From NCBI RefSeq assembly GCF_009017255.1, contig NZ_WBZB01000037.1, positions 1-64,000 on the forward strand: DNA of 64,000 nt. Reading direction: 5' to 3'. Shown here in pieces: positions 10,813 through 44,551 of this stretch. The notes below the pieces were generated by a model. The model ran no database searches and was not told the DNA's origin. It saw only the letters and a program-made list of their open reading frames with translations. The translations under genes and the position numbers were made by a program. How positions within the stretch are numbered: the first letter of the stretch is position 1; every line of letters starts with the position of its first letter. Origin of the DNA: Alkaliphilus serpentinus (GTDB lineage Bacteria > Bacillota > Clostridia > Peptostreptococcales > Natronincolaceae).

Positions 10813-11046
10813 TACATCCAAAAAAAATACACTGAACAAAAGTAGCTAGCGCCACGTTTGTTTTCCAGGGAACCCATGTGTTCCCTAGGACGTTTCACTT
10901 TCGGTCGTCTCACCGTCTCGACGCCGTTCGTAGCATAGTGTCACTTATTCGTGACACAACTCACCTCTCCTTACTTTAATAAGGGGGGAACGCCCCCCTT
11001 AACAACCTCCCATTTCATAGGCCTTAAAACGAACTTTCCTATGAAA
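10813..11046 (-). ncRNA. Candidate structured RNA gene, unassigned family
   Basis: This GC-richer block is full of perfect stems. On the minus strand, in order, they are: ATTTCATAGG/CCTATGAAAT (11011-11046), AAGGGGGG with CCCCCCTT and a 4-base loop (10981-11000), GTGTCAC/GTGACAC (10938-10957), a purine-rich junction with repeated GACG/CGTC segments and a GAAA, AGGGAAC/GTTCCCT (10867-10887), and a final AACAAACGTGGC/GCTACTTTTGTT stem with loop GCTA (10837-10864). A T-run follows about 8 bases later. Unpaired bases are purine-rich on the minus strand, which favours that strand. I cannot name the family or find a convincing promoter. Confidence 0.55.
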
Positions 11047-11047
11047 T

Positions 11048-11077
11048 AAAAAAGGGAGGCCACTTCTCCCTTTTTTT
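11048..11077. terminator. Bidirectional terminator between the exported-protein gene and the RNA candidate
   Basis: The stem GGGAG/CTCCC (11054-11058, 11066-11070) is flanked by A6 and T7, so it can end transcription in both directions, directly after the gene ending at 11083. Confidence 0.8.
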
Positions 11078-11082
11078 AAACA

Positions 11083-11565
11083 TTATGATATTGGATAATA
11101 ATCCTTTAAAAACCAATCTTCACCCTTCCTGACCATCACCATATGATAGAGGGTTTTCTCTTGCCTAAATTCTTCCATCCCCTGCAAAAACCAAGTAATA
11201 GCAACCTCCAGTTGAACTGTGTCACCCTCTTGCTCTACAACATTTAATTCCTCTATCTTAAAATCCTCAATAAACTCATGATCTATACCATCAGTCCTTA
11301 GTTCTTTAAAGGTCTCAATATCTGCTGTAAGTAATGGATCCTCAAGATAGTATCGTAGCTTCTTTTTCACTTCAGAAGTATCTATTTCAGTTCCTTCAAG
11401 TATTTGATTAAACAATTCAACCCGAATATGTAATCCTTCTTTAACTCTAATATATATTTCCCTTTCCAATAAATCAGTATTGGTAGGATTAAGAATAGCA
11501 AAAATATTAAGATGGTTAGCCATTAATAGTAGGATTAATAGCAGTGGCATTATAATCTTCTTCAT
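11083..11565 (-). CDS. Small exported protein of unknown function
   Basis: This 160-residue protein starts with a signal peptide (MKKIIMPLLLILLLMANHL, basic then hydrophobic) and probably acts outside the membrane. The mature part is acidic and mixed alpha/beta. The C-terminal half (VQLEVAITWFLQGMEE, then KGEDWFLKDYYPIS) resembles an NTF2-like or lumazine-type beta sheet, but I do not recognise a family. AAGGGGGA precedes the ATG. It lies between cheW and the RNA candidate and has its own terminator. Confidence 0.72.
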   Translation of the reverse strand: MKKIIMPLLLILLLMANHLNIFAILNPTNTDLLEREIYIRVKEGLHIRVELFNQILEGTEIDTSEVKKKLRYYLEDPLLTADIETFKELRTDGIDHEFIEDFKIEELNVVEQEGDTVQLEVAITWFLQGMEEFRQEKTLYHMVMVRKGEDWFLKDYYPIS

Positions 11566-44346: not shown

Positions 44347-44472
44347 TAACAGTAGCTTTATATTCTATGCTAATAAATTTCCTTTCCAAGGGTGGGAGGT
44401 AAAGGAATTTCTTCTTTTACCCATAGGTGATAAATCGTAGCTTAGGCCTTAGATTTATGCACTCGGAAATTT
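44309..44472 (-). promoter_or_regulatory. Candidate Mo/W-cofactor riboswitch in the moeA leader
   Basis: On the minus strand a three-way junction has P1 AAATTTCC/GGAAATTT (44375-44382, 44465-44472), a 10-base arm ATAAATC..GATTTAT (44427-44462) and an arm GGTAAA/TTTACC (44398-44421) capped by GAAA. CCTAAG and TATGG are both present, the parts of the 11-nt GAAA receptor, but the intervening stem is not convincing. Downstream a 12-base terminator hairpin (44320-44346) precedes T-tracts. ATTAGC (44374-44369) can pair with GCTAAT of that hairpin (44342-44337), an antiterminator candidate. Position and layout fit a Moco/Tuco riboswitch; sequence class is not proven. Confidence 0.55.
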
Positions 44473-44551
44473 TCTATGAATCTAATCATAATCTTACCAT
44501 AATTCAGTAAATAGTTCAATAATATCCTAGAGTTGTAAAGTCCTTAGAGGT

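Follow-up and report, generated by a model that had tools for sequence, protein, structure and literature searches.

The structured intergenic stretch at positions 10813-11046 of the window (the whole 64,000 nt of Alkaliphilus serpentinus DNA that we analysed) represents one of many dispersed copies of an element that has fixed ends and is placed behind terminators. The first-pass annotation had described it as an unassigned structured RNA. It is indeed structured, covarying, and outside of Rfam, but it is not a lone intergenic RNA: because it is multi-copy and has fixed ends behind terminators, we set aside the reading as an orphan single-copy RNA gene. The element is very probably mobile and terminator-targeting. 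We read it as a mobile element because of its dispersal, its fixed ends, the hairpin and T-run upstream of it, its covarying hairpins, its optional module, and its element-behind-element arrays. Our best explanation in full, which we rate at slightly less than an even chance, is that the element is small and non-coding, homes to intrinsic terminators as a non-autonomous mobile element, and is moved in trans, with a Y1 transposase as the first choice of enzyme.

The window contains one copy, which is of the long form. Its neighbors are the gene for a 160-aa protein without a Pfam match and, on the other side, a DegS/DegU-like pair. The features of this copy and its target are:

11048-11077, minus strand: intrinsic terminator (hairpin and T-run) of the gene at 11083-11565, the target that the element adjoins
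10834-11047, minus strand: the element, long form, whose ends follow from aligning it with other copies
11047, minus strand: 5' end of the element (the 3' end is TTTTGTT at 10841-10835, then C)
11012-11047, minus strand: P1, the 5' hairpin ATTTCATAGG..CCTATGAAAT, with perfect arms at 11047-11038/11021-11012
10980-11001, minus strand: P2 hairpin TAAGGGGGG..CCCCCCTTA, with arms at 11001-10993/10988-10980
10902-10964, minus strand: optional 63-nt module with two covarying hairpins (10957-10938 and 10923-10906), absent from short copies
10865-10888, minus strand: P4 hairpin CTAGGGAAC..GTTCCCTGG, with arms at 10888-10880/10873-10865
10835-10862, minus strand: P5, the terminal hairpin AACAAA..TTTTGTT, which is the element's own terminator-like 3' end, with arms at 10862-10857/10841-10835

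The inverted repeat of the terminator (11048-11058/11066-11076) is 100% complementary, and the T-run directly abuts the 5' end of the element. In the module, hairpin arms lie at 10957-10951/10944-10938 on the minus strand. The six perfect or near-perfect stems that had been claimed are present on the minus strand, with the neighboring gene's terminator (11048-11076) counted among them. The claim of strong structure also stands: relative to dinucleotide shuffles, the folding energy has z = -5.08 on the minus strand and z = -6.48 on the plus strand, and on neither strand did any of 200 shuffles fold as stably. No open frame accounts for the stretch, as had been stated (there is no ORF of ≥60 aa within 10813-11046), and an Rfam scan at gathering scores gave no match there. 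The suggestion that it might be a raiA motif (RF03072) failed, as this family was not among the 15 sub-threshold matches in the stretch at E up to 10. We rejected the Rfam families found at lax thresholds, which gave sub-threshold matches only, with the window copy as the query and likewise with a 357-bp relative. Elsewhere in the window, at 44363-44480 on the minus strand, is a molybdenum/tungsten cofactor riboswitch (Rfam RF01055, 69.4 bits).

The homolog search that had been recommended turned up dispersed copies whose hairpins have compensatory changes. BLAST of the stretch against its own genome found at least 54 matching pieces (the best 40 of 75 candidates were scored). Many copies in this genome are at contig ends, which is expected because repeats break assemblies. 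A covariance model of the core had 46 matches in the own genome, 57 in G008, 23 in G017, and a single one in G007; the remaining 16 of the 20 family genomes gave none, so that by this model the element is present in 4 of 20 (the own genome and 3 of 19 relatives). We take G008 to be the metagenome-assembled genome Clostridiaceae M1-B18 and G007 to be A. pronyensis; G017 appears to be Alkaliphilus peptidifermentans DSM 18978 (Natronincolaceae). When named genomes were scanned with a pattern, 45 stretches came up; by eye, we judged 36 to be elements and 9 to be likely chance matches in other phyla. Of these 36, 35 are in G008, G017, or G007 and one is in a Desulfitobacteriaceae MAG (L121). Further copies are present in distant Bacillota: in a sample of the phylum, at least 8 of 398 genomes had a match, including the own genome and, weakly, G357 (at most eight candidates were scored per genome). 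Plasmid and phage collections gave short matches only (best E 6e-3), confined to the first 46 nt of the query, which take in the terminator and T-run, and viral contigs had no exact match to the core pattern.

Upstream of the copies we find a hairpin and a T-run whose sequence differs from site to site. A hairpin with a score of at least 9 ends within 15 nt upstream of the element at 57 of 89 distinct junctions (a set that takes in, among its weak rows, some chance pattern hits and one junction on the wrong strand). By comparison, in 30 shuffle sets of the junctions such hairpins numbered 6.6 on average and never more than 12, and this score was reached in 6.8% of 811 windows drawn at random from the same loci. 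The other 32 junctions do not reach a score of 9; by eye, some of them are chance pattern hits and some have longer or imperfect hairpins. L181 and L202 are real junctions without a clear terminator. Of the five positions just before the junction, four have a T fraction above 0.8. At L162 and L174, the upstream hairpins resemble the terminators of T-box leaders.

The orientation of the element is constant relative to the upstream terminator. There is no sign of target duplication in the 44 copies with both ends (the mean anchored flank identity is 2.57, as compared to 2.44 in permuted pairs, with a standard deviation of 0.12). Nor does the window copy have an inverted pair that joins its ends; other copies were judged for inverted terminal repeats by eye. 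The element's own 3' end, a hairpin followed by TTTTGTTCT, resembles the target and can stand in its place, since elements directly follow such ends: at L107, one element comes directly after another's 3' end, and at L128 and L131, an element comes directly after a lone copy of the 3' hairpin.

The aligned copies share the order P1, P2 (AAGGGGG..CCCCCTT), a stretch AAGGAG..TCCTA, P4, GGAAAACAAA, and P5 ending in TTTTGTT. The 44 copies with both ends range from 118 to 235 bp, and their 3' boundary is sharp: the next base is C in 35 of them, and the one after it is T in 29. In the aligned long copies of the own genome and G008, the 63-nt module lies behind AAGGAG. We also observed it inside P4, in copies from G208 (L182, L185) and G213 (L224, L234). 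From these alignments, it looks as if the module had been moved or swapped independently in different hosts. In G213, the element takes forms of about 179, 302, 308, and 357 bp, measured from end to end, and L043, L044, and L047 have lost inner parts and kept both ends. Given the varying position of the module, the differing lengths, and these internal deletions, the element is, as judged from sequence comparison, modular. G213 has at least 51 pieces (the best 40 of 62 candidates were scored). By our pairing, the matches listed comprise 10 near-complete copies, 10 head-tail pairs, 17 heads without a tail, and 4 tails without a head. Among these matches, the 5' end is retained more often than the 3' end, although the head may simply be the easier part to detect. 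In distant copies (L162, L169, L174, L178, L181, and L184 of G213, and others), P1 contains TGTGGATAA, which the window copy does not have and which we take to be DnaA-box-like.

The fold of the element is conserved. Across 32 copies, six pairs are changed on both sides, in 31 cells; 0 of 500 shuffles reach either figure, and versions of the fold that were slid along the alignment reach at most 4 cells. Four of these are outer pairs of P1, and two pairs of P4 are changed on both sides. Among 25 modules, five pairs vary in this way, in 28 cells (0 of 500 shuffles reach this number of cells and 43 of 500 reach the number of pairs; slid versions reach up to 12 cells). The 27 short copies form a weak set, with two pairs and 19 cells, which 380 and 0 of 500 shuffles reach, respectively. 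As the copies are related, all of these counts overstate the number of independent changes. Either RNA or single-stranded DNA could be the form in which the conserved fold acts. G.U pairs outnumber A.C pairs by 22 to 2 in A1, although a single P2 pair of ambiguous alignment contributes 13 of the 22; the counts are 3 to 6 in A2 and 9 to 2 in the module, and together they weakly favor the minus strand as the RNA. A strong folding z-score and covariation are not by themselves proof of an RNA gene.

We propose that the element would insert immediately 3' of a terminator hairpin, in the direction of the terminator and without target duplication. The moving form would be a folded single strand, and strand exchange would take place behind a hairpin that is followed by about 9 T-rich nt, an arrangement that the target would supply and so would the element's 3' end (hairpin-TTTTGTTCT). 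The enzyme would be provided in trans. Our first choice is a Y1 (HUH) transposase, RAYT-like or IS200-like, which is a real possibility that we nevertheless hold to be somewhat doubtful. We rank Y1 first because of the hairpin ends, the absence of target duplication, the fixed orientation, and the two carriers without a reverse-transcriptase match. Y1_Tnp is found in all ten carriers searched. We discarded this co-occurrence as support, because Y1 genes are present in 18 of the 20 family genomes and 14 of these 18 have no match to the covariance model. No Y1 gene was flanked by element ends in 44 partly overlapping loci around a subset of the carriers' Y1 genes; the sole element match there was 24 nt inside another gene. 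Six of the seven Y1 proteins of the own genome were scanned: five have 252-265 aa and scores of 43-65 bits, and one has 157 aa and 138 bits. The label RAYT is presumptive. The presence of TGTGGATAA in P1 suggested a fusion of Y1 with DnaA, which we rejected: these six proteins and one from G008 gave Y1_Tnp and one sub-cutoff HTH_23, and no DnaA domain.

The kind of target raises the question of whether the element is instead the satellite of a retroelement, with its RNA carried by the reverse transcriptase of a group IIC-type intron. Group IIC introns insert at a T-rich site that a short spacer separates from a DNA stem-loop (PMC10190682, in part), and this is the same kind of target; also, the element has a conserved RNA-like structure, and RVT_1 is found in 6 of 6 distant carriers. 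In G213, a group II intron is found both behind hairpins and inside two copies of the element. One copy is 2.4 kb long and contains a group II intron (L217; Rfam group-II-D1D4-3 at 59.5 bits and Intron_gpII at 44.8 bits), within which a protein of 421 aa with the domains RVT_1 and GIIM is encoded. A second copy, of a different element subtype and cut short behind the intron, has the same intron in the same place (99.86% identity over 2178 nt). The insertion point in both copies (L217, L222) is just behind the P2 hairpin, and two further copies of the intron (L268, L272) are directly behind hairpins and outside of any element. As the same intron is found in two element subtypes and behind two other, unrelated hairpins, it looks like a guest in the element, and we rejected the idea that the reverse transcriptase belongs to the element itself. 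The intron seems to act like a group IIC intron, apparently taking P2 for a terminator. It has no sequence in common with the element. In the window copy, Rfam matches to group II domains (the catalytic V/VI or D1-D4) were absent, and the same search finds such domains in L217. Carriage by a reverse transcriptase is also hard to reconcile with the gene content of the closer carriers, as RVT_1 has no match in G008 (with its 57 model matches) or in G007 and is a fragment in G017. The own genome has one degenerate reverse-transcriptase locus with several stop codons (G000:C34:77032-77660; L064, L066, L086) and no element sequence beside it. Finally, the retention of 5' ends in G213 (17 to 4 among the matches listed) counts against reverse transcription, because copying from the 3' end of an RNA would leave the opposite pattern, if the minus strand is the RNA. 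We regard carriage by a group IIC-type reverse transcriptase as unlikely.

Integron integrases recognize folded attC hairpins, and the element might similarly be a cassette that is moved by a site-specific recombinase reading folded hairpins. Each element does have a single 3' hairpin site and can follow another element's 3' end, and target duplication is absent. On the other hand, the targets are ordinary terminators without a common sequence, and we consider such a recombinase rather improbable. We find it very improbable that the element is an ncRNA or cis-regulator with a function for the host, such as a processing or termination signal, of which many copies have arisen: conserved loops, covariation, and the constant orientation relative to terminators would fit, but there are dozens of copies behind unrelated genes, the presence of the element is patchy, and some copies are truncated or internally deleted. 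Also, nothing that we tested pointed to a host function. A mobile element that homes to terminators would most likely be tolerated by the host as a parasite, since insertion behind the terminator spares the upstream gene.

Both non-autonomous folded repeats (PMC3049150, in part) and the targeting of stem-loops by group IIC introns (PMC10190682, in part) are already known. BOX, RUP, and SPRITE of pneumococcus are short, folded, dispersed repeats that are regarded as non-autonomous. The middle part of the modular BOX is optional and folds alone, SPRITE is terminator-like, and BOX and RUP have inverted terminal repeats in common with insertion sequences (PMC3049150, in part). The element is likewise short, folded, and dispersed, and like BOX it is modular with an optional part, but it lacks the inverted terminal repeats of BOX and RUP, shows no target duplication, and sits directly behind the terminators of other genes. 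It resembles group IIC introns in inserting behind a stem-loop with T-rich DNA (57 of 89 junctions; PMC10190682, in part) and differs from them in having neither ribozyme domains nor a reverse transcriptase.

REP/REPIN and other non-autonomous relatives of IS200/IS605 share with the element the hairpins at the ends, the lack of inverted terminal repeats and target duplication, the Y1 genes in the hosts, and the CT at the element's end. The differences are that we found no Y1 gene with the same ends and that the target preference is for the fold of a terminator. The bcr1 repeat of the Bacillus cereus group is another short, structured, dispersed repeat of Bacillota. Unlike a classical MITE, the window copy is without inverted terminal repeats, and the 44 copies are without target-site duplications.

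The main text of a report on intrastrand triplex repeats contains no mention of Firmicutes or Clostridi (PMC4666352, in part). In our searches of open-licence literature, we recognized no description of a gene-free repeat that prefers terminators as targets. It is conceivable, and we advance it tentatively, that there is a new class of gene-free elements that home to terminators by means of a 3' end folded like the target (a hairpin with about 9 T-rich nt and CT behind it), that can string together, that have swappable RNA-like modules, and that are moved in trans by a fold-recognizing enzyme. Terminator-homing elements of this kind would account for structured intergenic sequences in Bacillota that resemble orphan ncRNAs. 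Besides group IIC introns, they would be a second type of element for which terminators are safe places to insert, and they would offer a natural system in which to ask how insertion is guided by the fold of the target DNA.

Near 574 on the plus strand of L225 (G213), a shortened element stops just ahead of a start codon and places its GGAGGG at a spacing like that of a ribosome binding site. The downstream protein presumably resembles phosphoglycerate kinase.

We also observed a different small element in G011, G079, and G017 (L012, L013, L018, L277, L278, L283, L284, L287, L290, L291, L292, L294, L297, L300, and L302). It shares only the inner P1 hairpin (ATAGGAAAGTTC..CTTTCCTAT) with the main element, and it likewise adjoins hairpins on their 3' side. 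In 15 copies, the arm after P1 matches the copy's own upstream flank, including the T-run, with a mean complementarity of 11.4 nt as compared to 5.8 nt in permuted pairs (0 of 2000 permutations were as high). Possible explanations of this match are guide-like pairing, templated copying, and palindrome correction.
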